From: Crambe crambe
Taxonomy: Eukaryota > Porifera > Demospongiae > Poecilosclerida > Crambeidae
Direction: 5' to 3'
NCBI GenBank assembly: GCA_963924555.1
Contig: OZ004582.1
Location: 1,612,001-1,676,000 of the forward strand
DNA: 64,000 bases
The notes below the pieces were generated by a model. That model searched no databases, had not been told where the DNA came from, and was given only the letters and a program-made list of their open reading frames with translations. Below are positions 17,129-53,879 of this stretch, piece by piece (positions within the stretch are counted from its first letter, which is position 1; every line of letters starts with the position of its first letter). The position numbers were made by a program, and so were the translations under genes.

Positions 17129-17194
17129 GTATACGGAGCCCGCTCTTTACCTGGGAAAACGAGGTGAGTAGCTAGCTAGTGCTAAAGCTGTATC

Positions 17195-17752
17195 ATGCCA
17201 GTCAGAAACAAACGTTCGGAGTCTGGTGGGAGAAAGAGTTCCCATTCACGCCCGAATCGACCAAAAAAGCTGTGGAATAGGAGTGATGAAGCGATGGTCC
17301 AGGCTATGGAAGCTGTCAGATCTGGACGTATGGGCACCAACCAAGCTGCCAGAGCGCACAATGTCCCACCTACTACGCTGAAGGACAGGCTATCAGGCAT
17401 GGAAGTAAGTCTGGTCCTAAACCTTACCTTACTGAAAGGAGGAGGAAGAACTACCTTAACTAGGAGTTGGCAAGACCAAAAGAGAAGTGCTCTATTGTTA
17501 AGAGGACACTACATAAGAAAGGGAGGAGCTTTGATAGTTTTAATGGTGAAGGGTGGTGGATTAGGTATGTGGAGCACCATCCCACGTTATCATTACATAC
17601 TAGTGATCCGTTATCGAGGGTTCGAGCTAATGATGGAACTCCAGCTAAAGTGTAGGTCCAGTGTACCAGTGAGAGCTGATCAAAAGATGGAGAAGGCCAT
17701 TTTGTCTGTGTGTGTGGTGCAATTTTTGTATAACTGTCATGTAGCTATGTAA
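17195..17752 (+). pseudogene. pogo/Tigger-like transposase, DNA-binding half only
   Basis: The start MPVRNKRSESGG is followed by MVQAMEAVRSGRMGTNQAA and VPPTTLKDRLSGM, the Psq/CENPB-N helix-turn-helix. In another frame come KRTLHKKGRSFDSFNGEGWW and HPTLSLHTSDPLSRVRA, the second CENP-B-type (HTH_Tnp_Tc5) helix-turn-helix. No DDE domain follows. The frame change between the two motifs is near 17465. The copy is therefore a 5' fragment of a pogo-like DNA transposon. A separate DDE domain of the same superfamily is at 60.4-61.2 kb. Confidence 0.7.
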
Positions 17753-20958: not shown

Positions 20959-23560
20959 CAGGGATGAAAATAACAGTCGGCCACCGGCAAAAATCCGCTC
21001 AAGAAGCTTGATTGGCCTGTCATTTGCTTAAGTGATCGGACACTCCAGCCGATCGATACAGTAGCTAAAAAATTAATTATTGGTGGGCGGGGTCCTATAG
21101 TCTGCGCGCGCAAGACTAAAGTTAACAGCTGCATATTGAATCGTTGAACTTTGAGCAAGCCTTTTTCGATCCATAATGGACACCCTAGACAAGTCACTAG
21201 TGTCTACTCTGTGGTGTGTTGTTTGCCGTAAGTATGAAAGCCAGATAAATAGCCATAAAAATTTCTCCAGAGCATGGATTGATGGTTCAAGCAACCACAA
21301 GACTAGCAATATCACTGACCATGCTATGAGTGAGCAGCACAAATCTAGTATGACTCTTTTTCGTAGGGATCAAGCTAAGAGTAGGAATGATCCAATTACT
21401 ACTTATAGCCCCATAGCTCGTGGTCTTTGTCATCCTGTTTAAGAGCAGATCAGGAAGAAGTTTGAAATTAGTTTTATGCTTGCAAAAGAGCATATACCCT
21501 TCTCGAAATATTCAGTGATTCATGAGCTGGAAGAAAAGCATGGAGTGGATCTTGGATCAACATATAAAAATAGAGATGCTCCCCGTAATTTTTTGCATTG
21601 AGACCCAAAGGAGGGATTTTCATCACATGCTTTCATCTAAACATTTCTATAGTATTTTAATGGATGGGTCTACAGATGTTGAGAACGAACTGTTCGTGAT
21701 TCTTTTTTGTGATATTGATGATGAAATTCAGGAAGTGAAAACAAGTGCCAGGTATTTGTGTGTAGTAGAGCCGTTGAAAGCTGATGCAAATGGATTGGTA
21801 GACTGTCTTGGTAAGGCTCTTACGTGCATGGGTATTGAAGATATTTTGGTTAGGGAGAATGTTTTGAGTGTTACTGACCATCCAGTTCTTGTTGGATGTG
21901 GAACTGATGGTGCCTCTGTTAACGTGTCCGATCAAAATGGAATGCGAGGCAAGTTGCATGCTGCTTTGTCGTGGCTGTGTTGGGCATGGTGTTATGCTCA
22001 TCGTCTTGAGCTTGCATGTAAAGATGCCTTTACCAGTCAACTCTTCAAAGAGATTGATGAGATGCTATTGAGGCTTTACTACCTCTATGAAAAATCACCT
22101 AAGAAATGCCAGGAGCTTTCGGATTTAATGGATGATCTGAAAGAAGTATATGAATTCCCCGAAGAAGGTGGTTGTGTTCCTGTGAGAGCTCATGGAAGTC
22201 GCTGGATTACTTCAAGAGAAAAGCTTTGCAGAGATTTGTTGATCGATATGGAGTCTATCTTAAGCATCTGGGAAAGCTTGTAGAAGACAAGTCAATCAAG
22301 AGTGTTGACAGACAACGCTTAAAGGGTTATCTACTGAAGTGGAGAGAAGCAAAAATGCTATTTTGTTCTGCTTTGTATACAGATGCACTTAAGCCTGCTT
22401 CTGTACTTAGTCTGTCCTTACAAGAGGGTCACATTGATGTTATACAAGGGATCAAGCACATCCTGAAGTCTCACAGCTCACTAAAGAAACTGTCTTCCCA
22501 AAATCCAGAAGAGTGGCCGGTGACCAAAGTGGTTTTGAGCAAGATGAAGGATGAGCATGGTGGTAAAAAATATCAAGGTTCAGAGCTGTATCAGTTCAAT
22601 GATGGCACTTTTCACAGTTGATCAGCAAATGCGTGTTCGGCTTGAGTGGTCAGGTGTAGATTTGATGCGATCAATTATTGTCTTTCTAGACACTCAAAGC
22701 TGGCAAGATTCAGAAGAAAGTTCTAAAGATGATCGTATGAGTGAAATTAAATCAGCTGTTGTAAGTCTTACTGAAGTCTTTCGTGCTCCTCTGGAAGTAA
22801 AGGGTGCTGACCTCAGCTCCATTCTTGATGAGGTTGAGGATATTGTTGAGTATGCTTGGGCTTACCTTAGGGTTGAATCCAACACTTATAAGAAAATTTG
22901 GTACCAGCTACGAACAACACCAGATTCTGTGAAGTGGCATAATGTCATACAACTCTGTGAGCTACTTTTCAGCTTACCATTTTCTACAGCTAAAGTTGAA
23001 CGTTTATTTTCGTCACTGAAAGTTGTCAAAAACGAGAAAAGGACAAACTTGAACTGTTCCACTCTCAATGACTTGCTGGAGGTCAAGACTGAAGGACCCT
23101 CTGTCAACAATTTTTCAGCTGATGCAGCCATGGAGTTGTGGTGGAAAGATTCAACAGGACGAAGAGTTAACCAGAATCATCTGAAACTGAATTAGATCTT
23201 GAAACATGGGATGATCGGTTTTGTGAGGGTACAATTCAAGATGTGGACTCAGGCTCTGACTAATTTTGTATCCTGTAATATTATCATACACTATCATATG
23301 TCTTGGTTATTAACCATAACATAGCTACCACTGTCATGATAATAATACAAAGCAAACATACATAATTGCACCTACGTAGCAGCCCTAGCTATGCATGCAG
23401 TCATAGTGTTTTCTCTTGAGTAGCTGCAGGGTACCCGGGTACACAGGGTACACAAGGAACAAAATTTAGTATGTCAGGTCAAACACCAATGATGGCCTAA
23501 CAAGTAGTACTTTGGTCTGACAAATTTCAGGTTATGTTATTAAAATTATTTTCATCCCTG
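20959..23560 (+). mobile_element. Complete hAT-type DNA transposon, 2602 bp
   Basis: The left end CAGGGATGAAAATAA matches the right end TTATTTTCATCCCTG as a 15-bp terminal inverted repeat. TAGCG stands directly before the left end (20954-20958) and directly after the right end (23561-23565), a 5-bp target site duplication. Most hAT elements make 8-bp duplications; a hAT5 group with 5 bp is known. The element carries one transposase gene on the plus strand, with about 215 bp of leader and about 300 bp of tail. Both ends are intact, but the gene is not. Confidence 0.9.
21176..23263 (+). pseudogene. hAT transposase (ZNF862-like), broken
   Basis: The N-terminus MDTLDKSLVSTLWCVVC begins a TTF/BED-like zinc finger (C..C ... 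H....H, with HAMSEQHKSSM). The catalytic region has ILMDGSTDVENELFVI (first Asp) and VGCGTDGASVNVSDQNGMRG (second Asp), then CYAHRLELACKDAF. An insertion domain comes next (VRAHGSRWI, LQRFVDRYGVYLKHLGKLVE). The C-terminal dimerisation block reads LCELLFSLPFSTAKVERLFS and KNEKRTNLNCSTLNDLLEVK, and the tail is acidic (DSGSD). The layout matches ZNF862/KIAA1586-like hAT proteins. It is interrupted by a TAA at 21440 and by frame changes near 21590, 22215 and 22615, so the element cannot move itself. The conserved peptide between the breaks implies fairly recent inactivation. Confidence 0.85.
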
Positions 23561-25194: not shown

Positions 25195-26640
25195 GTGTCA
25201 ACAGATGATACCAGCGGCAAGACCATTGCACAACGAAACAAGGCTATGAACCGTGTGAGGGACCTCGTGAGTGCTGGTGATTTTCCTTCACAGCTGAGGG
25301 AGGAAATTCAACACCTCAACAAAGATGAGCGGCAGGATCTCCTTCAGAATGCAGGATTTAGATCAGGAGGTAAAATAATTATATCCTAGATCATCCATTC
25401 AAAAGTTTACAAGGATCTCCCCATACAGTTGGGAATTTCACTTAGTAGTGAAAGTAAGCAGAGGAAAGTTGCCAGTTGGTTTGGAATGAAGGCAACACTG
25501 AGCTGTGGGTAAAGCTAGGTGGGGTTCATCTTTTCGAGATGAACTTCCAATGTTGCTCGCCCAAATTCCATCCAAATCACCTGCGTCTTCACAGCATTCC
25601 AGATAGCCGGTCAAACCTCAACATCACTCTTCAAAGATACCAGGAGCAAATCAGTCAACTCCAGTCCCATGTTTGGAGGTACATGATTGCATTATGTGTG
25701 ATGTCAACCTCCTTCTTAACCAGATAAAAACCAGATAAAAGTCCCTGAGGATTTACCTCTCTGGGGATTATGAATTCCTGGGGGAAATGTATGGGATCTC
25801 TGGAGCTTCAGGTAGTCTATTCACTACTTACTGCCATATAAGGATGACAAGAAGTGGATAGCATCTTTTGATGGCTTCTACTTGACGAAAGGGCACTACT
25901 CCAAAGGGCACTACTCCAACAACTGCTCGGCTACTCTCCACGATTACCAATCTGGTGGGATAGCATGGTTCTGTCATCGAACAAAGAGAGGTCTAGGACA
26001 CAATTGGGAGGGGACTTCAGCTGGAGCTGAGGGGGATATGTTCAGAGAGCTGCTAGGGAAAGCTAAGGATGCTGGGTTTGTGGTACAGGAAATCATCACG
26101 GACAAGGATTCGTCAGTGAACGCAATCTTTAGTAGCAAGTTTCCTGAGGGCACAATCACATAATTGTGCCAACCATAGCGCCAAGACCCTGCACAAAGAT
26201 TTGCAAAAAAATAAACCAAGCAAATGTCAGGTAATGTGACATCTACATATACCAGGTCCTGACTTACTTTACTGATAGTGCCATGCTGATGGCTTGGAGA
26301 GGTGCAAGAGGATGACTGATCCATTTATTGGGAGCTGCAAGGCAGCCTTGAATAACCTGATCTCATCAGACAGTCAGAAGACCCATACAAGGATTTTTCC
26401 CAAGGGATGAGATGCTGCAGAGACACTGAACTTTGATGATGTAGATGATGCTGATTTGGGGCTTGCAGTAGAGGATAGTGAAGATAACGATTCAGGAAAT
26501 GAGTCCATGTAAGTTGGTGATGACCACACACATCCCCTCTTGTTTCTCTACGATTGCGAGTCCACTACAGCAACACCACCTTTGAGAGTTTGGTGAAAAT
26601 AGCTCGCTCAATCCCACAAGCTGGTATCACTGAATAAAAA
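25195..26640 (+). pseudogene. Kolobok-like transposase-exonuclease fusion, decayed copy
   Basis: A helical N-terminal part (IAQRNKAMNRVRDLVSAGDF, LREEIQHLNKDERQDLLQNA) is followed by WIASFDGFYLTKG (first Asp), GIAWFCHRTKRGLGHNWEGT and IITDKDSSVNAIFSSKFPEG (second Asp). The frame then changes at a TAA, after which CANHSAKTLHKDLQK continues. Next comes a CKAALNNLISS segment. Downstream, LLFLYDCESTT and FESLVKIARSIPQAGIT match the first exonuclease motif of the intact-looking copy at 50-53.8 kb, in the same order and orientation. The segment holding the transposase Glu and the rest of the exonuclease is missing or unreadable. A GGGCACTACTCCAA duplication near 25892-25921 is private to this copy. 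No terminal repeats were found. Confidence 0.7.
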
Positions 26641-26880
26641 GTAACAAAAATAATTATTTTGTTTCAGTCACCAAGGTAACCAACATCACACCTAAGCTCC
26701 AAAAGTTTGTCTGTTGTTTGTTCAAGGATCATAGTTGTCACTTGTGCTATATATATATAAATTTTTTTGTCTAATTTTGGGTTATTAATTTAGTCGCTGA
26801 GTGGCTGGTTTTCGCAAATTGGGTCACATATGGTAAACCTAATTATGATGTAAATTAATAGAAAATACATTGAAATGCTA
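26641..26880. other. Short intergenic stretch
   Basis: It contains CGCAAATTGGGTCACATATG near 26814-26833. A close relative, GCAAATCAGGTCACATAT, lies near 38048-38065; this may mark the end of a dispersed element. Confidence 0.35.
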
Positions 26881-32020: not shown

Positions 32021-32319
32021 GCAATTTAATTTATGTTTACCTTGTATCATCACTGATATTATTCAAACACTTGCGGTAGTGATCACTTTAGTGGAGAGAG
32101 CAAACCTGACCCTTCTGGTACCCAATTAGGCATCAGCAGCAATCAGGTGTATCGGCTGATCCCCTAGATGCTTGCTAAAGCAGCTATGATTGACATAATC
32201 ATGAAGGCTTCTGGTAGTTTTTAACAGATCACTAGTATCCCTTATCCTTAATGGCCCAAACTTGAAAGATCAAGAGAGGTGTGAATCACAAGTATGTCTC
32301 ACTGCTTCACAGGTTATTG

Positions 32320-33431
32320 GGATCAACTATATGGACATGCGCGTGCGTGCAATTATACGCGCGAATTGAGATAACCACACCCCCATGAAAGAGGTTGCCA
32401 AAAGAATTTTGAACGAACTAGCTGCTGCTTGCCTACACCCATCCTTGACTGACTTATACGGCACCATGGGGAGCGAGCATTAGGTGTATGGGACGTACTA
32501 TTCACGCACTGTTGTGACTCCAAGGCTAGGCAACACTCGCCCAGCTTGCAGTGTGGGCCAAAGGGCTCCCTAAGGCAACCAAAGAGTTTGAGGTCAAAGG
32601 TCGGTGCCGTTTAAGTAAGCAAGAGTAGTAATCATAGATATAAAGTAGGGTGATATTGCCCAAAACGTCATCATTGCTCCTTCCATATCTTTCTCGCCAC
32701 ATGAATTCATCGAGATAAGAAGGAAGCATGGAGCGATGGCAGCCTCTCGTTCTCTTTAGTTTGATCTTTGCCCTATTCCAGTAGGATTCGATATGATTGG
32801 TATGAACCCCAGTAGGACTAACGAATTCTACAGAATGATTGACAGTGCTGTAGCCCGAAATAGCAGGTGTAGTGGCCAAACTGTTGTACGCTGCCCAACC
32901 ATCTGACCAGATGGTGGTTCCTGGCTGTAAGTGTGCCAGGATTATGGGTAGAAGGGTAGCAGCATCCCTGTGGCCAACTAGTTCCATATACCCAAGGGCT
33001 GGGGTCACACTCGTATCACACTTCCTCTTTGGCGTCTGTGACTGGATACTGCCTGGCCCACCAATGCATCAACAGAAGCCACTTCTGAAGGGAGAGCTTC
33101 GGTTTCTCAAAGAAACTACCCTTCCTGATGCTAATGCATTTGTGACAATCAGGATAACGCCATCGGCAGCCATCACTTATATCCTGCCTGCTCTGGAGTA
33201 CCATCGTAGTGCCGCATGGGCACTTTTTCTGGCTGGCAAGAACATGTTTACCCTGCAAGAAGGTGATAATACCCAGGAGTGCCTCCAAAGGCTACAGGCC
33301 CAAGCTCAAGAAGAGACATTTCCCGCTTCTTTCACGCCAAAACTTTAAATTACAATAGTAATGATGTTATCACGTTTAATTTCGCGCGTATAATTGCACG
33401 CACGCGCGTGTCCGTATATTATAGTTGATCC
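32320..33431 (-). mobile_element. Merlin DNA transposon, 1112 bp, with 8-bp target duplication
   Basis: The left end GGATCAACTATA, then GCGTGCGTGCAATTATACGC, is mirrored at the right end, giving an inverted repeat of roughly 45-50 bp with one short length difference. GGTTATTG flanks it on both sides (32312-32319 and 33432-33439). The right arm of the inverted duplication has the same flanking sequence near 37410-37425 with a single GGTTATTG and no insert, a natural empty site. Length, GG-starting ends and the 8-bp duplication fit the Merlin superfamily, as does the ISXO2/IS1016-type transposase inside. Confidence 0.92.
32526..33288 (-). pseudogene. Merlin (ISXO2-like) transposase with internal deletion
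   Basis: The N-terminal part has a zinc-ribbon start (CPCGTTMVLQSR), a following WRYPDCHKCISIRKGSFFEK motif, and LSLQKWLLLMHWWARQYPVT. The C-terminal part has PALGYMELVGHRDAATLLPI, TTIWSDGWAAYNSLA (Asp), VNHSVEFVSPTGVHTNHIES (with the final acidic residue in HIESYW) and YLDEFMWRERYGRSNDD. These are the signatures of ISXO2-like transposases. Between DAKEEV and TSVTPALG the family normally has about 90 residues, including the first catalytic Asp (IDES motif). They are absent here, and the two parts are in different frames. The copy therefore cannot encode active transposase, but its ends could still be used in trans. Confidence 0.85.
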
Positions 33432-33444
33432 GGTTATTGTGTAC

Positions 33445-33900
33445 CTCCATGCAAAGTCTAGGCATGTTCTTCGACGGGAACCACCCTTGCCAATTTTCAA
33501 TGTTCATTGAGGAATGGATTAAGTTCCCTTAAAAGCTGTCTGAGTGAGGCACACTCCAACGAAGAAATGTGGATTGAGCTTGCACTTGAGCGAAAGACAA
33601 TCTCGGTGGCGTTGAACATGGCATGGATGTGCAGAGACAAGGGATTGAGTACTATTTTTGATCAACCACTTTACACCCTAGCAAAATTGGTACAGTGGAA
33701 ATGGCCAACTGCCTATGGTGAATCTGTGTATGTTGTCATCACCATTCTTGCTGGAGCATATTTTGAGTTAGTTTTGGCTTTCGGAAGGGAAAGAGGTTCG
33801 CTACAATTGAAAGCACGAGCACTGCCAGTTTTTCATGCACTGACAGGTTGTGGGCATTCAGAGGGAAAGGCAAGAAATATACGAAGAAATTACTGAAACA
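33445..33900 (+). pseudogene. XPG/FEN-like nuclease-related fragment, left-arm copy
   Basis: The sequence reads LSSLKSCLSEAHSNEEMWIE, ERKTISVALNMAWMCRDKG and, later, ILAGAYFELVLAFGRERG and KARALPVFHALTGCG. In animal relatives the last motif is usually followed by D and a GKGKK segment, as in the helix-two-turn-helix of XPG/FEN nucleases. Compared with the right-arm copy, this one lacks the stretch containing HHEEADILQ and RTVDTDVI, so it has lost an internal piece. The protein is part of a high-copy uncharacterised family. Confidence 0.5.
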
Positions 33901-34227
33901 TTCGCGTTTTTAGCAAGCCATCCTTATCTGATGACTCCATTCAATGTGACAAAACCAGTTCCCTGAATTATTCTGCCACAAGAATTGAGCCATGGATTTT
34001 TTTATTTTTTATTTTTCTTTATAACTTTAGTGTCCAAATGGGCACAAGGCGAGCCAACTAGCCACTGGCTAATACTAAGGCTGCCTAAATAAAAACATAA
34101 ATGAATCAAACAAGACAGAGCAAACAAAGTAATAGCTGCTATTGTAGTCAGCATTTAAAGAGTTGTAGTTTCAAGTGTTTCTTAAAAGCCAGGTGAGATG
34201 TTAGGATACCACCTACCAAAAATACCC

Positions 34228-34693
34228 AGGGGTGGCTCTACTGGTTTTAAGTTTGGGGGGGGGGGGGGATGCTGGTGTGCCAGAAAAAATTTGAAAACCA
34301 CGCCAACTTTTATAAGATACAAATAGTCATTGAAATGTTCCAAAATATAGTGATAACCTAAGTTCAGTGTGCCTGTGAGATGCTGTGAATGTGTAATATG
34401 ATGCAGTTATTCAGTCTTTTTTCAGACATTGTTGTAAGGTAAAGACGCAACAATTTATGAACTTCTGAAAGTATTAATCGATTTGCAAGTGTGGTCATTG
34501 CTTCACATATGGTCTGAATGCTAGTTACCTTTTTAACATCTTGTAAGGCTTGGTGAATAACATCAACTAGAACTCCAAGAGGTTTCTTTAGTCGATCATT
34601 CTTAAAAACTGACTCTTGGATGACTTAAAGCTCTTTTTCATGAAGATCTCCATTAGCAGCTTCGATAAGGAGTGATTCCATCGCAATCATACG
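34228..34693 (-). pseudogene. hAT (ZMYM1-like) transposase C-terminus, left-arm copy
   Basis: This is the inverted counterpart of 36328-36741. On the minus strand it contains the segment that, in the other arm, reads as the end of a hAT dimerisation domain, and it closes with the CAGGGGTGG terminus and a 14-base G run at 34255-34268. It is truncated where the arm ends near 34693. Confidence 0.55.
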
Positions 34694-35869
34694 TTTTATG
34701 GCTCCCTTTCTGGGATAATTATAAACAACCCCTTCTGGGTTTTAATGACCGAATCTCTTTGCGTAAACACAAACGTCTGTCTCCCTTCTATGGTAGCAAA
34801 CAGTTCCATAATTTTCGAGGGTAACGATTCAGCTTCGAAATGGGGTTGACTATTGCATGGAAGTCTCTGCATAATTATCCAGACACTCCTGCCACAATCT
34901 GAATGGATGGCAGTAACTTCAAATCCCTTCAGTCCTTGGAAAATCTGCCCATAATTTCTTTGAGCTTGGGACTGTATCTTAGCCCAATCCAGTTTTACCA
35001 AACAGAGTAGGCCCTTTGCTCATCTACCACTATCAGTGGTACCTTTGTGGTAGTCATCCCTAACACTGTTGGACATGACTAAAACACGGAACGGACTAAA
35101 TACCGGATCGAAAAATGGATCAAAGAATATAGTAGCTATAGTCACTCACTTCCACGATACGCTCCCGTAGTGCAGTCTTATTCTGTCAACGCCAGCTACT
35201 AGGTAGAGCAGCACAGTACAGCTAGCTAGGTTCAACGTTGTTGTCACCTTACCTATACACGCCCCTCCCATACACGCATGTGCATAATAATTATAATTAT
35301 TATACTTTGCTAAAGAAACCAAATGATGAAAGAAATGACCAGAAACATTCCATGAATGAGAATTACTCGGAGTTTTGGAGTCATAAGGCTTCCACCCCTT
35401 TACAACCTTGACATGTAGAGACACGGTTGTTTATGTAAATGGTAGGTACCTGAGAGTGTTGGAAAAACGTAGCTGAAAATTGTAGTTGATTGTATTTGCG
35501 CTCAGCTAACTTAGCCATGGTCTTATATGTATTACATGCATATTAAAGATTCATCATAATTATAATCCACATGCTCTATGCCTTGTTTATTACATACCGA
35601 CTGGATATACACCATCTATCTTGCCACAAAGTTGTCGAAACCTTTCTTTCCAGTACAATAGGCCGTGCCGCATTCATTCACAATGCTCAACTTGGAAGAT
35701 GTATCTTCAATATCAGCAGATGCTTGGTTTATTTGATCTTCCCAATACTAGAGCTGAGACTTTGTAGTTCTAAAAGATATGCTCACTCAATGTGCTTGGC
35801 CTTTATTGTTAGCATTAATGCAGAAAAAAAGAAATGGCTTGGCTACTTTATTTAGAAATGAAGTCCCAG
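34694..35869. other. Spacer between the inverted arms
   Basis: A 101-codon minus-strand frame at 35001-34696 (MVKLDWAKIQSQAQRN, FEVTAIHSDCGRSVWIIMQR) has no family I recognise, but its codon pattern looks protein-like. The rest, including frames at 35146-35424 (-) and 35571-35855 (+), has no recognisable domain. Confidence 0.35.
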
Positions 35870-36741
35870 CTGCAATACTTGTCCACTAGCTCACTCTCTA
35901 AATCTGTGCATTGATTAACCAGTACAGTGTCATTCTGGAAACACTAGAGGAAATTCATCAAACAACCCGTGATGATCATGGATTGAAGGCAGCTGGAATA
36001 CTTTCTGCATTCGAAAAATTTTAAAAAAATTCATGAAACTAGGTCACCTCCTGTTCAGTGCTGCTGAAGAAACATCTAAATTTCACAAGCCAAGAACATA
36101 AGTATTCCAGAGGCAACATCAATACAACTAAAGCTTTTTATAAGCGTCGGAGGAAAGATTGACAGGTTTATCAGAATGAGGCTCATTCTTTGGAAATAGG
36201 TGAACCTAAAATACCAAGGTACAAAAAGCTACCAGTCAACCCCACCAGTTCAGTGCACCAAAAGCTTACTTTCGTAAAATTTATTATGAAGCTTGCGACA
36301 TCCTTATTCAAGAACTAGATGATCATGAAGCCTATGATTGCGATGGAATCACTCCTTATCGAAGCTGCTAATGGAGATCTTCATGACAAAAGAGCTTTAA
36401 GTCATCCAAGAGTCAGTTTTTAAGAATGATCGACTAAAGAAACCTCTTGGAGTTCTAGTTGATGTTATTCACCAAGCCTTACAAGATGTTAAAAGGGTAA
36501 CTAGCATTCAGACCATATGTGAAGCAATGACCACACTTGCAAATCGATTAATACTTTCAGAAGTTCATAAATTCTTGCGTCTTTACCTTACCATTCCTAC
36601 AACCTCTGAATGAAGTTACATTCACAGCATCTCACAGACACACTGAACTTAGATTTAATATGATCTTATAAAAGTTGGCGTGGTTTTCAAATTTTTTCTG
36701 GCACACACCCCCCCCCCCCCCCCAAATTAAAACCACCCCTG
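35870..36741 (+). pseudogene. hAT (ZMYM1-like) transposase C-terminal third
   Basis: Readable pieces in order are NQYSVILETLEEIHQTTRDD, FTSQEHKYSRGNINTTKAFY, IPRYKKLPVN, KIYYEACDILIQELDD, NDRLKKPLGVLVDVIHQALQ and LSEVHKFLRLYLTIPTTSE. YYEACD.LI..L and LRLYLTIP.T.E are the dimerisation-region motifs of ZMYM1-like hAT transposases. The reading changes frame several times. It ends in a 16-base C run and CCACCCCTG (36733-36741), the reverse complement of a CAGGGGTGG end, so the 3' terminus of the element is probably preserved. The first two thirds of the gene are missing. Confidence 0.65.
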
Positions 36742-37493
36742 GGTATTTTTGGTAGGTGGTATCCTGAATGGAGTCATCAGATAAAGATGGCTTGGTAAAA
36801 ACGTGAATGTTTCAGTAATTTCTTCGTATATTTCTTGCCTTTCCCTCTGAATGCCCACAACCTGTCAGTGCATGAAAAACTGGCAGTGCTCGTGCTTTCA
36901 ATTGTAGCGAACCTCTTTCCCTTCCGAAAGCCAAAACTAACTCAAAATATGCTCCAGCAAGAATGGAGATGACATCTGTGTCCACAGTTCTCACTTCAAT
37001 TCTACTCATTTCCTGTTGCAATATGTCGGCTTCCTCATGATGCAGACCACCAAGCATGACAACATACACAGATTCACCATAGGCAGTTGGCCATTTCCAC
37101 TGCAAGGGTGTAAAGTGGCTGATCAAAAGTAGTACTCAATCCCTTGTCTCTGCACATCCATGCCATGTTCAACGCCACCGAGATTGTCTTTCGCTCAAAT
37201 GCAAGCTCAATCCACATTTCTTCGTTGGAGTGTGCCTCACTCAGACAGCTTTTAAGGGAACTCAAACAAACATTCCTAAAGTTGGAAATGCTGAATTCCA
37301 TCTGGTTGATTTGCTTGATGCACATTGAAAATTGGCAAGGGTGGTTCCTGTCGAAGAACATGCCTAGACTTTGCATCCAACTTGGAGGAGGGTGTTTTTT
37401 GAAGTTGTACACAATAACCTGTGAAGCAGTGAGACATACTTGTGATTCACACCTCTCTTGATCTTTCAAGTTTGGGCCATTAAGGATAAGACT
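36328..37493. repeat. Right arm of the long inverted duplication
   Basis: It mirrors 32240-34693 without the Merlin insertion. Both arms contain the hAT C-terminus, the poly-G/poly-C run with CAGGGGTGG and the XPG-like coding. The outer limit is near CCATTAAGGATAAG at about 37480-37493 and the inner limit near ATGATTGCGATGG at about 36330. About 1.6 kb separates the arms. Confidence 0.8.
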
Positions 37494-41989: not shown

Positions 41990-44900
41990 TTAGGCATACA
42001 AGGAGCATTATAGATTATTTTTTCATGGAGAGTGGATACGGAATGATAAGTATGAAGATGATTGCAAGAGTTCTGCATCTTCTTCAATGTGTATCTCATT
42101 GCCAGATAATGAAGCTTCTATGATTAGTAGTGATGATGAGTTCATGCAAGATTATCAATCAGATGGTAAGTTTCTGTACAAAAAAAAAAAGAGGCAACCT
42201 TGAAAGCATTGAACGTATCAGAGGCAGTAAAGTTGAGATCATTAGGCCTGTACTTCAGTTTTGCAACTCATACTGTGCTTCTGTATAGAAACAAATGGTA
42301 CCCTACTGTATTCTAATAATCATTGATTTATTTTCAACAGATATTCATGTCCCACAGTATTGGAATGAAAGTGATTTGGAATTGAGTGATGATTTTTCCA
42401 TTTCCAATGATTGCAATGAACCACCTACACCTCATTTTACAACAGATGAAAATCGAAATGAAGATCATGAAGCATTCATTTGGTGGGTAATTTCTTTTTC
42501 TTGTGTATTCCAAACACTCCATTCTATTTCATCTCGAGCTATTGGGTGTTACTTGGAAGCATATTTTAATTTCTTGGCCGTTATTCTGATGAAATAACAA
42601 AGATTGCTCTTGCTTTTCCTTCTACTCTGCATCAGAGAGAAAAATATTTAAAGGATAAACTTTTTATTCCTCAAATTTATCGTTATGTAGTATGTCCTTC
42701 TCGTCTTTCCCTCTACAAATACGAGCATTGCTTTGAAAAACAAGGTATATCTCGAGTAATCAGGATGTGTAGTGAATGTATGCACTCTAAAAGACGATAT
42801 CATGTGCCACTCTTGAAGCAAGTTGTTTCAAGTAGTGGTAACTTGAAATTCTACCCCTTCTTGGTTTTCCCTTATAGCTCATTGATTGAATCCCTGAGAT
42901 CTTTTTTTGTCAGGCCTGGTTTTTATGAGCAGTGTGATGAATGGCGGCAAAACTTAATGCAAAACCATTCACTACATGATTTCTATGATGGTAAAATTTG
43001 GAAGAGCTTTAACAATGGCGAATCATTTCAAGAAAAGAGTAATTGTTTAGGATTCATGCTTAATGTAGACTGGTTTTAGCCCTATAAGCATAGAACATAC
43101 TCTATTGGAGTGATGTACTTGGCCTTCATGAATCTTCCTCGTGAAGTACGCTTTAAAAGGGAAAACATAATTCTGGTAGGCCTAATTCCTGGTCCTTCTG
43201 AACCATCAAAAACAATTAATTCTTACTTGACTCCACTTGTGTCTGATCTCCTCACACTTTGGGATGGAGTAGATTATGAGACCAATAAATCTGGCATAAA
43301 AACTATTAGAGCTGCTTTACTTTGTGTTGGATGTGACTTGCCTGCAGGTAGAAAAGTTTGTGGATTTCTATCTTTTTGTGCCAACCTAGGGTGCACAAGA
43401 TGTTACTCCAATTTTGGAACAGGCATATTCGGTAGACAGGACTATTCTGGTTTTGACAGGAGCAAGTGGATACAATGTACAAATGAGCAACACAGAAAAG
43501 ATGTCGACGAAGTACGAAAATGCTCAACTATAACTGCAAAACAAAGTAAAGAGAGTGAATTAGGGTGCCGATATTCATGTCTGTTGCAGTTACCATACTT
43601 TGATCCAATCCGTATGTTGGTAATTGATCCAATGCATAATCTATACCTGGGTACTGCAAAGTTTATATTCAGTGGTATTTGGCTTAAAAAGGATTTCATT
43701 AATCCGACATTGATAGATGATATTAACAGTAGAATATCTTCTTTGGTTGTACCTCCGGAAGTTAGGTTTGGTAGGTTACCTGCTTGTTTGGACTACCCAT
43801 CCTCTCTTACTGCAGAGCAATGGATGCTCTGGGTTAATTATTACTCTGTATTTGTGACTTAAGGGGTCACTTCGCGCAAGATAAATTTTTGAGATATGTG
43901 CGTTTAAACTAGCCTTAAGTAAAAAATAATTTCTTTTTTCCTTGCCTCCACAGTATCTTCAGTCCTTTGTCTAACTTCCTGTCAAATTTCAGGAAGTGGG
44001 AAGGCTTTGAAGGTGGCAAGCGCTCGAGTTGAAGTGAGCTACCTCACCTGGAACTTATTTCACATCCTACGTGCCCAAATTTCAATGTTCAATTACGGAA
44101 GACGTATGAGCATAGTGCGCGGAAATAAGGGAAATTCCCCACATAATACTAAAATTCTTTATGATGATTTCTATTGAATACAAGTTAGCTACACAGGTAA
44201 TTAGATAGCCACAGATAGGTTGTGGTAGGGGCCATCCAACTTTACAGGTCAGAAGATTCGGATTTGGAGGTGCTGGATTCTATTTGTCTCCTTCAACCCC
44301 AGGACAGTTGACCAACACAGCCCTGATCCTACCAGTGTCTAGATTCCAACTCAGGCTAACACCGCTTCCACAGAAATCAACTAATAAAGCTTAACATAAT
44401 ATAATAGAGATGGGATCATAAAACTTCTAAGTACTTTAAAACTACTACGAACATACCTTAGATAACCAAAACACTCAAAGATAACTACGTAGTAAAGCTA
44501 AGTCTACTTCTTCTCCACACAGCTGCTACACGAGGTAAGAAAAATTGAATGATGTCATCGCATTATACGGACTCACGTAAAGATTTACGAGTATTGGGTA
44601 TTGACCGGAAGTTCAATGTTTAGACGCCGTTTATTGCAAAACGCTTATTCAATCTTTCTCTGAGGTGATGCACTTAAACGCTTATAGCTCCGCGGTAGTT
44701 AAGATTTAGCCTCAAGCGTAGTATCGATGAAATTCTAAGGTAATGAGCTATAGCGTGGTACTAATAACTCAATTTTTGATTTCTGCGCGAAGTGACCCCT
44801 TTTCCTAAATTCAGTCACATTTTGCCTGCATCACATCATCCCACCTGAGCACTTGGAGTGCTGGAGACACTTCGTGCTTGCATCAAGAATTTGTGTAAAC

Positions 44901-47312: not shown

Positions 47313-50077
47313 CTAAGGTTTTAATATTTCCTCCCTGCCAAAAATTGCTTCCTTGGCCAAGGCTGTGGTGAGGTTTCTTAAACTGGCAGTATCATTCTCA
47401 TTTTGTGTAGTACATGTTTGTGGCGGCAGAGGTGTCGATTCTTCATGGGTGGCAGTCTGAGGAGCTTGAGGTGACAGTAGAGGTGTGACACTTCTAGATT
47501 CACTTCTGGCACTTCCACTCCAAGAAGCATCATAGCCAATACTGTACCACTTTTTGTGGTGGAAGTGGAGGCAGAGAGACTGATTGGTGTCTTTGTGGAA
47601 GTTCAGGAAATGACAGTCCAGAACTTGAATTTGATGGAAGTGGAGGGAGTGGCTGACATGAGCCTGAAATTCCAAAATTTTGAGGAAGCGAAGGGGGAGA
47701 GAGTGCTGAAAACTTCCGAGGACATGGCTGTTTTTGTGGTGGAAGTGCAAGTAGAGAGACGGCTGATACGAACTTGGTATTGTGTACTCCTGTTGTCTAG
47801 AGCTTTGAGTAGGTGGACACAGAGGAAGAGATGGATGATGCAAGTCAGTAGGTGATTGTTTCTCTTGATCACAGTTTACAGGAAGTGACCTACTAGAGCC
47901 TGGGAGTGGCTGATCCTGTGGGTGACCAGAGATGTCAAATGGCTTCTCCTTACTAGATCTTAGCTGTTCCTTGTTACCATTAATTCGATATTAACCGTTT
48001 TATGTTAAAAGTCAAAACAACACAGTAAGAACATAATTTTTCAGCATATCGAATCGAGTCAATGCATTCTTCGTGTAGCCAACGTCCACACACACATAAC
48101 CCACTCAGCCTCCATTCCATTGTGAACATCTTCAGAATAAGTACGTAAGCAGATTCTTCCTGAGCAGCCCTTTCTCTGCTTTCTAGTTTTTCCATAGTCA
48201 ATCTCACTAACAACTGCTCAAAGTTCAGCTTCTTCATCCACTTAGATAAGGTTTCGGGCCTGGCTTGACACCTTGAGATGCATATAGATGCCTATCTTCC
48301 AAGGCACTGAAGGTAGCCCTTCTTACAGGCACGCCTTTCTTCACACTGTCTCAGTCAAGGGCAGCCAACACAACAGTAGTATAATAGCAGGAGCTGACTT
48401 CGAAAGCAGCCTCCTCTTTCGCCGAGGTATCCTAGAAAGAGAAACCAACAGCATGCATGGTCTATGTTGCATCCAAAAACATCGAGAAATTTGAGCAAGC
48501 TAAAAGTGTTTTAACTAACTAAACAACATATACAAGGTTTACTGTCATCAAAACAACTTTTATCAGTTATTAACTTGCCTTGGAAGAACTGCAGAAGATG
48601 ATCAAGGCTATGTACTACATTTGCAGTACCTGTCACAAGTTTAGTTTCCATTCCAGTGCCGATAATTGGCAGCTTACGCTACATGGGAGAGATAAGAGAG
48701 ATTATCCACCATTGTTAATTTTACAAGACTATATGAGTCCAACTGGACTCTGACTTCATAAACCCAAGAGCACTAAGTCGTTAAAGAACTTAGGACCTCA
48801 AAAAGGCATAGAGAATATACAAACTGCATGCACATTTTTTTCATTTTTTTTTGTACCAGTGCATGATGAAACTTCAATTGAAGCCTTGGCTGATCTCCAT
48901 ATCATATACAGCCAACTTTTTAAACTTGACTAAGGGTCTGAAAAAAATCATTCTTGTGGTAAAAAGCTTGCATGGTTGTGGTAAAATGCAGAGTTATGAC
49001 TTTTATTATGATACCTTTGGTGGGTGACTCCTCTCCAATACATATGATACTTCCAGCCTTCTTTTCAACCATTCTTTTCTTTTTTTGTCTTCCTTTTGCC
49101 CCCTGCATGAATTAATTATATAGCTATAGTAGCTAGCTATATAGCTATAATTATAGCTATATAGCTAGTTAGCTATTATAACAAGTGCATGGTGCGGAAA
49201 TCCTATGATATGATAGAATGGAAAATATATGAGAGACATAATTATACGTAACCGGCTACAGCCATGACAAAATTAGTGAGTGATAGGCTTAGGTAGATTA
49301 TGCTCAAGATTCTATTCCACAATGCTCCAAAATGCTACCTATTATTCCCTCAAATGCACCAATTATTCCCAGATTATGCTTGCCCAGTCCACCAGTAGCA
49401 GAGCTAAAAGTTGCTTAGCCATTGCCATAGTGATAGCTGTCCATCTAGGCACTGTTACAGTGTAGCACCTCAGGCAGTAGAGAGTGAAGTCTTTATTTCA
49501 GATTTGCATGCAGCAGCTCCAATTCCAGGAAGTCCCGATAATTCCCAAAATTATGCTGGCATAATCTACCTAAGCCTAGTGAGTGATCATGAAACTTGAT
49601 AATAACCAACCATGCACACTGCATGACTTGCCTTTCTGTGGCAGTTTACTTGAGGTCTGGAGGTCCAGGTTTTTTTCAGATTTTTTTCCTGTACCTATAA
49701 AATTATTAATCTACAGTTATCTCAGTTTCAGTGTAATAGCTAATCAGCTACACCTTAAAATAGTTTAATAGCTATATAACAATACCTGCAGCTGGATCAA
49801 CAATAACTCCTTTCCAATTTTCAATGCTGCCACCCTTCCCCGGCCATGGAATAACGACGTCTTTTCCCAGTACCAGATCCTCGACATTATATATAGCGAT
49901 TCGAGTCTGGCTGTCCACCATGATCTTCTTTCCGTCCCACCGCTTTGAAGAATTACCGCCATAAAGAATGCAATACTTTCGCTCTCCTGCTGTATTTTCA
50001 TAGGCAGCCTTTCCTCCAGAAGATGGGAGGCCTTCTGCCGCAGACCTTAAGGGTGGTCGGACACCTCGCCCACGCAT
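47313..50077 (-). CDS. Poorly understood multi-exon gene, fragments
   Basis: The 5' exon, read from 50077 to about 49782, gives ERKYCILYGGNSSKRWDGKK and VEDLVLGKDVVIPWPGKGGS, then ENWKGVIVDPAA. It ends at a GTATTG donor and joins in frame to an exon near 49107-49012 (KGRQKKKRMVEKKAGSIICI). Separate downstream frames give LPIIGTGMETKLVTGTANVV (about 48680-48600), FEQLLVRLTMEKLESRERAA with CVCGRWLHEECIDSIRYAEK and LCSYC (48237-48010, a RING/PHD-like cysteine pattern), and finally LTTALAKEAIFGREEIL (stop 47313), vaguely BEN-like. Whether these belong to one gene is uncertain. The 5' exon runs into the end of the Kolobok-like element: its ATG at 50077 lies inside the transposon, which sits at this exon's upstream edge. 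Confidence 0.3.
49115..49185. repeat. Simple repeat of TAGCTATA words
   Basis: A roughly 70-bp stretch consists almost entirely of TAGCTATA and TAGCTAGC, many of them palindromic. Shorter runs occur throughout the window. Confidence 0.7.
49284..49578. mobile_element. MITE of 295 bp with 8-bp target duplication
   Basis: TAGGCTTAGGTAGATTATGC at the left end and its exact reverse complement at the right end form a perfect 20-bp inverted repeat. GTGAGTGA flanks both sides (49276-49283 and 49579-49586). The 8-bp duplication fits a hAT-type (or Merlin/P-type) mobiliser. It has no coding capacity. Perfect ends and perfect duplications suggest a recent insertion. Confidence 0.93.
50047..50063. repeat. 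Left terminal repeat and TTAA of the Kolobok-like element
   Basis: TTAA followed by GGGTGGTCGGACA, the exact inverse of the right end. Confidence 0.93.
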
Positions 50078-53000
50078 GGTAACTAGGGGACAGTATCTCG
50101 AAAAATACTTGCAGCAGACACTTCTAACAAGCACAGAACTATAACAGTGCTATAATAGTACTACCTGGACAAATCTCACTGAGGTTATGAGCGATCTCAT
50201 TATCAACATAAACGTCACTCTATCTCGACGATCGCTAGGAGGCAATGGCATATTTTTGCTCTACTATCTACCATTCCAGTCTCCTACAAAACTACGTTTC
50301 GCTTTTATCGATTTTAACTTTGCACACACCATGTTAACTGCCATGCAAAATCTAGACCATATATCAACAAAAGCAAAATGTAGTTTTATTTACCTTACTT
50401 CATACTAGTGGCATGCAATATTTGGGCCCAGTCCCATACTTGGTTCCTGAGCTAGAGTTGTTGGAACCGTGACCTAGAACAATAGAGCCGCGCCCCCTAA
50501 ATAATTGTACGCGCGAGTGAAACCTCCTGAACTTTGGTGGCTCTGAAAAGAGAAGTCGAAGCGATGGCGAAGAGGGAATCCTGGGAGGTAGCTGGAAGTT
50601 GAAGATGGTGGTGGCGAAGGCTCAACAGGATCCGCTCAACATAGCCGTGGGACTCGCGCGACTAAGGGTGGAGAATCTTGGATAGCTTCTCGCGAAGGGG
50701 CTTGCTGTTCACTCCCTTGTCCTTCAGAGCTTGCATGAAGACTTCCTTGTCCTTGTGTGTGCAGCGAAGCTTGGAAAGATCTTCATATCCAAGACCAAGA
50801 GTATCTAGCCGTTTAGCTTGAGGTTTGGTGATGCTAGGCTTCCCTAGAGACTTCACGAGGGCAGTTATTCTCTGGAACAGTCGCTTTTGTTCAATCCACG
50901 CAGTCATCTGCTTCTTTGGAGAGCGAGTAGGAAGCTTGGAGAGGCAACTGACTAAGGATGGGTGAGTGAAGACCTTTTCCATAGCTAGAATATCTGGCAG
51001 AGCCCTATGCTACTATCAAACTCTTAGCAAATACCATCTATGTCAGATCCCACTATATGCTTGTGCAGCTTTTCCATCCCCAGAGATACTCCTCGAAGGC
51101 ATCCATCCCCATCTTTCTTCATCTAAATAATTATATATCAATAATATGTATACCCTTCGTAGAAGTGGCAGCGTGTCGCTGAAATGTCAGAAAATCTCAG
51201 TTGTTGAGGGTGTCTCTCCACTTCAGCTAGAAGGATAGGGAAATCGAACGCAAACCCATTGTGGGCTACTAAAACAGGATAATGGAGGGTATGTGTGGCG
51301 TCACTGACATGGGAGGTGATAGTGATGACCCAGTCCAAAAATAGAGGGAACACAACAGAAAGAGGCCTTTCACTTCGTAGCATTGTGGTGGTGATTCCAG
51401 TGACCTTGGTTACTTCGAGTATAACAGACATTGTCATAATTATTATTTATAATAATGTCGTAATAGTACCAGCTGCTGGGATGCGCCTGGAGGTCTTCAC
51501 AAGACTGGAGAAAGTGGGAGAGCTAAGAGGCACGGGGGAAGCTATCACTTTGGCTGCCATGTCAGTGATATGATCGTCATAGATGCTGAACCCTGTCGTT
51601 TCACAATCATAAAATATCAGAAGAGGGTGTGCATCATCACTGCTATCCTTTTCCTCATCTAGTGACTGATCATCAACTTCAGGGTCAACATCTACAGGAT
51701 CAAGGTCAGCTTCTTGTGGTGTTGTCACTGCACTCTCTGACTCTCCCTGGCCATCTCCAACATATTCCCCAACAGCACACCCCATTTCACGCAGTGTCTC
51801 CATGTACACCTTCTCCTGCTCGTAACGGAGCTTCTTTGCTATGAGAGCGAGTGCACTTTATTTAGGACTGAATCTGCATAATCAAACTACCTCTTATGGT
51901 GATACTCCTGGCTTGACCTCTTCTGTCGGTTCTTATCCCACTCTGCCTGCTCTCTCAGGATTGAGGCTGCTGCAGCTGCTGGTATGTCCACGTGCATCAA
52001 AATGAGGCAGAAAACTTTCCATATGGGACCCAAGTTCTAAAGAGGACTGTAAGTCATTATAATGTTTGTACTCCCTATGTTCGTACCTTGTGACAAATGG
52101 CCATATTCGTCTTGCAGATGTAATGGTTGTGGCCAAGATCTGTCCTCTTCCCCCGGTAGATCAGTGCCAGACCATGGAAACCTTCCACGCCATTGGTAGT
52201 TAGCTCGTCTCCCATGGTCCGACACATAATCTTGTGGGCAATCAGCCATGTCATCAAGCAGGTGCTTGAACCCATCAGCCTGTGCCTTGCACGTGAACCT
52301 CTCTTTGCTCTGATAAGGACTTCCATCCTCATTCACCTGAAGGAGAGTTGGTGCTCATTAATTGGAAACCTACTTGGGATATGTTACCTTCTCATGGTGG
52401 CACCAAGGAGATGTGTGAATATCCAGGCAATAGTGGGAGTGGAAATTCAGGATGGCCTCAGAAAACGACTTGAGTGGATCATCAGACTCCTGTACTTCTT
52501 CGGAGGATATCAAATTACTTAGAGCTGATTTACAATGCCCTAGTAGCCCTTCTGTCATGCGCTTACACCTGAAGTTGTCCACCCGACACTGTAAGTAGAA
52601 GAAACAAGTAAAATATGTAATAATTATAAAATGTATAGCTCACTTCACACTTGTTCCTCTTTATCTTTTCTAAATCCTTATGCAGGGTCTTTGCACAATG
52701 GTTGGAACAATAATTATGTGATGGTGCCCTCAGGAAAGTGTCTGCAAAAGATGGCATTTGTGGAGGAGTCCTTATCAGTGATGATCTCCTTGATTGAAAA
52801 GCCGGCATCCTTCACCTTCCCCATCACCTCATCCAGCATGTTACCCTCCGCTCCTCCAGAAGTGCCCTCCCAATTATGCCCTGTTCCTCTCTTGGTTCGG
52901 TGGGTGAACCATGCAATATCACCAGACATGAAATCATGAATGGTGGCTGAGGCATTGTTTGAGTAGTGGCCTCGTGTCAGGTAAAACCCATCAAATGAGG

Positions 53001-53807
53001 CTACCCACTTCTTTGCATCACCCCTCTGCACTATCATTTGCCTTACCCGACTACAGGACCACTCTGCCAACATGGTGACATGCTCTTCAAGCTTCTGGAC
53101 TATCCGGCGCCACTGATGATCTGAACAAGGTGGGAGCCCCAACCACTCACTCAGTCTGATATAATCTGCATATAGATAAGACGGGATAATACTGATTCCA
53201 CGAGCAAGTTGATTCATGAATATGGAGAGTTCCGGGATGATGAAAACCAACACTAGCACTAGAGACGTAAGTAGACAGAGTTGAAAAATCGTATGGTAGC
53301 CCGACCTTTTCTGCTGCTTGCACTAGCTTTCCTACAGTTGTTTCCCATGCATCACTGGATCTGGGACTAGGATCTGACTCAGGCATCTGAGGATCAGGAG
53401 GAGATTCTGGACTGTCTACGAGAGCGGGAGTCTGAGATACTGGGTTTTCTGTGAGAGTGGGAGATTCTGAGTGAGACTGAGACTCGGCTTCTGGAGGAGA
53501 GAATCTGAATTGGTTGAAAATGCCTCAGCTAGAATTATTTACTGATATTTATTTTTATTTGTATTTCACCTCTCCTGGCATTGCATCTTTTCTTCTTGCT
53601 TGCCATTGCTGCTGCAACAATTTGCAGCTTCCTTTTCCTGGAAAAAGGCATGACCACAGAGCCACAACTGACCAAAGAGATAAGCCAACAATTGCGCGCC
53701 AAATTGCTACTCCACTTCAATTTTTGCGCACTACATTTCACGTGGTGCGCTCGCATTAATTAAGTGGTTAAAATTACAACCGCGCGGGTTGCTATGTCCG
53801 ACCACCC
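50051..53807 (-). mobile_element. Complete Kolobok-like DNA transposon, 3757 bp
   Basis: Perfect 13-bp terminal inverted repeats (GGGTGGTCGGACA / TGTCCGACCACCC) are each flanked by TTAA. TTAA duplications are typical of Kolobok and piggyBac. The transposase inside is not piggyBac-like but carries the GHNWEGTS-type D-D-E motifs of the animal family I associate with Kolobok. The element has one gene on the minus strand with eight short-intron exons, about 145 bp of 5' leader and about 600 bp of 3' tail. Ends and splice sites are in good condition. The reading frame has several small breaks. Confidence 0.88.
50662..53651 (-). pseudogene. Transposase fused to DEDDh exonuclease (Kolobok-like), 8 exons
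   Basis: Exons can be placed at 53651-53570, 53523-52644, 52588-52388, 52336-52087, 52036-51891, 51855-51470, 51412-51154 and 51122-50662, with GT-AG introns of about 35-60 bp. After a basic start (MPFSRKRKLQIVAAA) and an acidic Ser/Pro linker come WVASFDGFYLTRGHYSNN (first Asp), GTGHNWEGTSGGAEGNM and IKEIITDKDSSTNAIFCRHF (second Asp). HCAKTLHKDL, CRVDNFRCKRM and LTTNGVEGFHGLALIY (Glu) follow, then a coiled linker. The C-terminal part has IFYDCETTGFSIYDDHITD, VLVAHNGFAFDFPILLAEVE and HRALPDILAMEKVF, the complete D-E-D-H-D set of a DEDDh exonuclease. Breaks: frame changes near 53270, 52713 (at a TAA) and 52210, an 11-base insertion near 51175, and damage near 51020. Confidence 0.85.
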
Positions 53808-53811
53808 TTAA
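53795..53811. repeat. Right terminal repeat and TTAA of the Kolobok-like element
   Basis: TGTCCGACCACCC followed by TTAA, the exact inverse of the left end. Confidence 0.93.
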
Positions 53812-53879
53812 TGGCCAGCTAAATAGAGCTAGCACTACTTTTTCCAGATTCGTCTATAGCTAAGCATAACAGAAACACT

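Follow-up and report, generated by a model that had tools for sequence, protein, structure and literature searches.

Transposons of the Kolobok superfamily duplicate TTAA on insertion, have 5'-RR...YY-3' ends, in contrast to piggyBac, and encode a transposase whose DDD/E triad is accompanied by a C/DxxH motif, with a zinc finger between this motif and the E in almost all lineages, as set out in the sections of PMC9587614 drawn on here. The same source (Kojima and Bao 2022) pairs a Kolobok transposase with a DEDDh exonuclease in KolobokD and proposes a role for the pairing; it compares the KolobokD exonucleases with TREX and exuperantia, and states that KolobokD, like a few further lineages, has a hardly varying CCHC finger downstream of the first D (PMC9587614). 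KolobokE is likewise a Kolobok with a downstream nuclease, but one of the PD-D/ExK class, and the passages on KolobokD do not state whether its transposase and exonuclease form one polypeptide (PMC9587614). Here we describe an element from the sponge Crambe crambe, found in a 64,000-nucleotide stretch of contig OZ004582.1 (positions 1,612,001 to 1,676,000; hereafter the window, to which all coordinates refer), in which one gene region on the minus strand encodes first a D-D-E transposase of Kolobok type and then a DEDDh exonuclease. We read it as a KolobokD-like variant, that is, a Kolobok-superfamily cut-and-paste transposon with a DEDDh exonuclease, rather than as a proven member of KolobokD. 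A preliminary description of the element had implied that this pairing was new; it was already described as KolobokD in 2022 (PMC9587614), and in the portions of the literature consulted it is known but untested at the bench.

The element spans 50047-53811, including unstranded TTAA duplications at 50047-50050 (left) and 53808-53811 (right), and is bounded, as had been noticed from the sequence, by perfect 13-bp terminal inverted repeats (GGGTGGTCGGACA; 50051-50063, plus strand, and 53795-53807, minus strand), which lengthen to 17 nt when TTAA is counted in. Allowing up to three mismatches, this 17-mer matched the window twice, at the two element ends, where 0.07 matches were expected. The window has 299 TTAA sites. 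Among pairs of these spaced 0.5-8 kb apart, six are bordered on their inner sides by an exact inverted repeat of 10 bp or more; the element is one of the six, and the remaining five all belong to a single long inverted repeat (32.2-37.5 kb). That repeat (32241-37490), for which seven arm pairs of 61-210 nt and 92-99% complementarity are listed, holds an open reading frame for an IS1595/ISXO2-like transposase (32529-33068, minus strand, E-value 1e-15). The termini of the element, GG at the 5' end and CC at the 3' end, follow the RR...YY pattern. An assignment to piggyBac was rejected, as RR...YY ends are contrasted with piggyBac in PMC9587614 and the proteins scanned gave no piggyBac Pfam match. 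When the flanks were rejoined at a single TTAA (49772-50046, minus strand, with 53812-53840), an open frame was found to cross the insertion point (LFSWPLRSAAEGLPSSGGKAAYENT...), and the element may therefore sit in an exon, where it would interrupt a host open frame; the part of this frame that was scanned against Pfam gave nothing above cut-off.

The six motifs on which the preliminary description had relied (ASFDGFYL, IITDKDSS, NGVEGFHG, FYDCETT, AHNGFAFD and HRALPD) are all found on the minus strand in that order, and eight GT-AG introns of 31-57 nt, predicted from sequence, can be drawn across the gene. As drawn, exon 1 (53570-53651) opens with an ATG and encodes a basic N-terminus, and is followed after intron 1 (53569-53524) by exon 2 (53236-53523, as read). 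The transposase core lies in exon 3, which carries the first D (ASFDGFYL) and the second D (IITDKDSS) in a frame, here called frame 0, that runs to the ACA before a TAA (52717-53235), and which continues in the +1 frame with the CxxH motif (CSNH) and AKTLHKDL (52644-52715). After intron 2 (52643-52589), exon 4 (52388-52588) encodes a Cys/His-rich stretch, CLDIHTSPWCHH, between CxxH and E, the interval in which the zinc finger of the superfamily would be expected. Intron 3 (52387-52337) separates this from exon 5 (52087-52336), with the third catalytic residue in NGVEGFHG, and intron 4 (52086-52037) from exon 6 (51891-52036), with the end of the transposase and a linker. FD, TD, CSNH and VE thus form a DDD/E triad with CxxH between the second D and the E, and the D-D-E set previously assigned to the N-terminal half is present in order, though in different frames.

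Beyond intron 5 (51890-51856), exon 7 (51470-51855) completes the linker and encodes exonuclease motif I (FYDCETT); intron 6 (51469-51413) leads to exon 8 (51154-51412) with motif II (AHNGFAFD), intron 7 (51153-51123) to exon 9 (51054-51122), also exonuclease, and intron 8 (51053-51010) to exon 10 (50662-51009), which comprises motif III (HRALPD), a tail of about 95 amino acids predicted with low confidence to be helical, and a stop codon. With introns removed, and with an X placed at the last intron and at the exon 8 frame change, which falls inside the domain, the C-terminal part matched Pfam RNase_T (PF00929) at 3.8e-15 across positions 1-164 of the 164-position profile. The DEDDh motifs DxE, HNGF.FD and HxxxxD are all present, so that the full exonuclease set reported earlier is confirmed, with one frame change inside the domain, and by its sequence the exonuclease is real, beyond chance. 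Among PDB sequences, the best matches were entries named exodeoxyribonuclease III, 9l8a (7.3e-9), 9l8b (7.6e-7) and 9mrc (1.2e-4), the last being zebrafish Plex9.1 according to the text cited from PMC12934764. TREX2 (1y97, 4.1e-6) and polC (2p1j, 2.1e-5) were also matched. With TREX1/TREX2 and Plex9.1 the element's exonuclease has in common DxE, HNGF.FD (TREX), HxxxxD and overall sequence similarity; to our knowledge, all of these are host enzymes that are not fused to a transposase.

The translated pieces of the element matched only one other place in the window, a plus-strand stretch near 25.8-26.7 kb. This second copy (25846-26690) is diverged and internally deleted, and comprises a transposase core, the same frame change as the main copy, and an exonuclease remnant. 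Across 102 transposase-core residues it is 72% identical to the main copy; it has both D residues and the CxxH motif (as CANH), and shares an intron position in the transposase part (26231-26278). After the internal deletion, it continues with the exonuclease remnant HPLLFLYDCEST, whose local score of 74 lies above the highest value, 43, reached by 60 shuffles, and then with NTTFESLVKIARSIPQA; a homologous exonuclease intron was read by eye at 26624-26667. The ends of this copy were not found: the best TTAA-flanked pair agreed at 7/13 positions, and two sites resembling the terminal repeat at 10/13 had no TTAA pairing. The other copy therefore has the same domain order, transposase core and then exonuclease start, and does not end before the exonuclease, in a sample of one. 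Because it keeps both this order and the intron positions, the two domains are unlikely to be chance neighbours, as had been argued for the main copy from its layout. Further afield, four scans of viral_contigs turned up 9, 23, 37 and 5 candidates, of which none could be confirmed as a relative, and a pattern search there had no match. In genome_contigs, a scan reduced 45 candidate stretches to four loci; each bears the title of a bacterial metagenome-assembled genome and matches the exonuclease part only, at 24-33% identity.

Several results weigh against the family assignment or limit what the second copy can say of it. When scanned against Pfam, the transposase gave nothing above cut-off, with two chance-level matches (E-values 0.14 and 0.29), and two further transposase pieces had no Pfam match at E<=10; no PDB sequence matched the transposase better than E 0.37. 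A single-sequence AlphaFold2 model of exon 3 was poor (predicted local distance difference test, pLDDT, 43), and Foldseek returned nothing for it at E<=0.001 among the best 50 of 737 rows inspected. The Kolobok label therefore rests on the D-D-E and CxxH motifs, TTAA and the RR...YY ends, all of them features that PMC9587614 gives for the superfamily. In the second copy, the region of the third catalytic residue is deleted, and the counterpart of exon 8 scored 32, not above the shuffle maximum of 37. The CCHC finger of KolobokD was looked for between the first and second D, which we took to be the meaning of 'downstream of the first D'; the main copy has no Cys in this interval, and the second copy has two Cys without a CCHC pattern. 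It is because neither copy has this finger before the second D that we speak of a variant. The element is like KolobokD in its Kolobok-type transposase and TREX-like DEDDh exonuclease, and differs from it in the missing finger, in its interrupted frame and in a +1 change at a stop codon shared by both copies.

In the main copy, the conserved reading shifts frame four times: at about 53.3-53.2 kb (exon 2), at 52716 (exon 3), at about 52.24-52.21 kb (exon 5) and at about 51.19-51.17 kb (exon 8). For each place, the possible bridging introns between 20 and 150 nt long, with GT-AG or GC-AG borders and the anchors kept on both sides, were enumerated. None bridges the second or the fourth. The first has a single candidate, a 22-nt intron whose donor is GC. 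Of seven candidates for the third, two begin with GT (28 and 34 nt) and the other five with GC; these odd introns, which would drop coding-like sequence, seem unlikely, at places that no relative covers well enough to judge. The fourth change is recognised from the reading downstream of it, FSDTLPLLRR, which can be aligned to DTLPL in 9l8b and to DTLPALR in TREX2. What looks like a fifth change, ahead of HRALPD, is accounted for by a 44-nt GT-AG intron. Of the single gene with short introns put forward in the preliminary description, the domain order and the shared orientation therefore stand, and introns of about the size given (about 35-60 bp) can be drawn, including the two it had placed at 53569-53524 and 51469-51413; an open frame through the gene could not be shown, as four changes remain, two that no intron can bridge and two with odd candidates only. 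With its frame interrupted, the main copy as assembled probably owed its movement to a transposase supplied in trans, or fell into decay once inserted, or contains assembly errors.

The second of these changes is the one that both copies share. In each, ...FPEGTIT is followed by TAA, after which CSNHCAKTLHKDL or CANHSAKTLHKDL is read in the +1 frame. At ACA-TAA-T (52713-52719, minus strand; 26158-26164, plus strand, in the second copy), past the second catalytic D and ahead of the CxxH motif, the conserved frame thus moves +1 at an in-frame stop codon. Between the copies, the proportions of synonymous (pS) and nonsynonymous (pN) differences were 0.73 and 0.15 over 100 codons of frame 0 before the site, and 1.02 and 0.20 over 52 codons of the +1 frame after it. 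Wrong-frame controls gave ratios of nonsynonymous to synonymous divergence (dN/dS) of 1.3-2.1, with stop codons dropped, leaving 91, 86, 44 and 42 codons. With pN low and pS high in frame 0 and then in +1, the protein sequence was kept on both sides of the site while silent sites became saturated. Within 10 codons on each side, 13 of the 15 comparable codons are identical, compared with 50 of 106 overall; the permutation fraction was 0.0012 at this distance and 0.008 to 0.014 at three others, and 0.07 when the interval was allowed to lie anywhere.

An intron was rejected as the cause of the shared change. In the main copy, the enumeration of introns with GT or GC donors and AG acceptors (20-150 nt) left none that spans the site with both anchors kept; in the second, candidates of 28 and 37 nt would remove residues common to the two copies, and they have no counterpart in the main copy. 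RNA downstream of the site folded with z-scores of -2.9 (main copy) and -1.5 (second copy) over 66 nt, and of -0.5 and -1.4 over 90 nt; the folds differ between copies, so that no common structure was found and no stimulatory element is claimed.

Control by translational frameshifting is familiar from antizyme and from bacterial insertion sequences. The +1 change that both copies share at a stop codon, with protein sequence maintained on either side, is suggestive of comparable control, in which programmed frameshifting would gate production of the full transposase-exonuclease. In such a lineage, most translation would end at ACA-UAA-U and yield a truncated product, a possible inhibitor that keeps the N-terminal part together with two of the three catalytic residues, and a minority of translation would pass the site by +1 ribosomal frameshifting to give the full protein. 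That the lineage really gates its transposase in this way we consider doubtful. The comparison involves two copies from one assembly, the main copy has three other frame changes that could not be compared, the lack of an RNA fold common to both copies downstream of the site and the two candidate introns of the second copy also count against it, and a sequence-dependent assembly error is a possible cause of the shared change. In the literature search, as far as the sources could be seen, no description of programmed frameshifting in eukaryotic DNA transposons was found, which is not proof of its absence in print.

Our preferred reading, to which we give somewhat better than even weight, is of a KolobokD-like transposon whose relatives make one transposase-exonuclease protein, with the exonuclease trimming 3' ends at excision. 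Functional relatives would encode a D-D-E transposase with CxxH followed, in the same protein, by a 3'-5' exonuclease resembling TREX and Plex9 enzymes. The transposase would pair the 13-bp ends and cut at TTAA. The exonuclease, brought along by its covalent link, would trim 3' ends at the excision site, on the flanks or on failed excision products; such 3'-5' trimming would leave 5' overhangs, which would favour clean rejoining at TTAA. This role in trimming is inferred. The nuclease might instead work away from the transposition complex, clearing stray transposon DNA (or RNA) as TREX1 does and so sparing host sensors or repair, with the fusion serving for co-expression only. The nearest solved relatives by sequence, which include TREX and Plex9 enzymes, would fit this, as would the comparison with TREX and exuperantia made for KolobokD exonucleases in the cited part of PMC9587614; but a single polypeptide brings the nuclease to the ends, which a bulk role does not need, and we give this alternative roughly one chance in four. 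Far less plausible still, and in our view very unlikely, is that two neighbouring genes are involved, or that the exonuclease belongs to a host gene hit by the insertion. No continuous open frame can be shown through the gene, given its frame changes, as this would lead one to expect. Yet both domains are enclosed by a single pair of terminal repeats and read in the same direction, phase-compatible introns can be drawn across the linker, the second copy has the same order elsewhere in the window, and the joined flanks reveal a different open frame, which the element entered.

Whether the sequence speaks of regulation at all is a separate matter, and here the balance is even: the element may equally be an ordinary dead fossil in which every frame change, the shared one too, reflects decay or assembly error, with no regulation, a view compatible with the family assignment. 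It accords with four frame changes, two of them without any possible intron, with the internal deletion of the second copy, and with a nearby transposon remnant (21519-23192) that likewise lies in overlapping open reading frames of different frames. Set against it are the perfect terminal repeats and duplications, the intact motifs, and the shared change at the same codon despite saturated synonymous divergence, which would be hard to obtain by independent decay.

The tail that follows HRALPD (50662-51009, minus strand) was modelled with AlphaFold2 from a single sequence, at low confidence (pLDDT 51.5), as one long helix and then four shorter ones. Its arrangement resembles that of PML-1 PXL and Exuperantia, in which an exonuclease fold is followed by a helical SAM-like part. 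In the passages of PMC12934764 concerned, both PML-1 PXL and Drosophila Exuperantia are pseudo-nucleases, and the SAM part of PML-1 PXL occurs, other than in PXL, only in Exu among nucleases. Unlike these two, the element's exonuclease keeps its motifs, and neither of them was among the 38 sequences that it matched at E<=10. A Foldseek search with the exon 10 model, itself weak, gave nothing at E<=0.001 and no SAM domain by title among the best 50 of 104 rows, and sequence searches neither supported nor extended a SAM-like reading. A SAM-like tail, as in PML-1 PXL and Exuperantia, is thus offered as a lead only.

The window contains other transposon remnants. An open reading frame at 22548-23192 (plus strand) matches the hAT dimerisation domain (Dimer_Tnp_hAT, 1.1e-4), and two overlapping frames that Pfam does not recognise, 21519-22280 and 22154-22618, may belong to this remnant as well. 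There is also a tnp2-type transposase match at 43080-43859 (plus strand; Transposase_21, 4.8e-15) and an open reading frame with a Psq helix-turn-helix domain at 17186-17749 (plus strand; 1.1e-10). Together with the short introns, this set of remnants (hAT, tnp2, IS1595-like, Psq domain) would be in keeping with an animal genome.

If the tail of the element is SAM-like, KolobokD-like transposons would become candidates for having given rise to the EXO-SAM module found in PML and Exuperantia, which is a lead and nothing firmer. If the +1 site is real, it would represent translational gating of a eukaryotic cut-and-paste transposase, in an animal-type DNA transposon. A transposase equipped with its own end-trimming exonuclease would provide a self-contained system in which to study the processing of excision sites.

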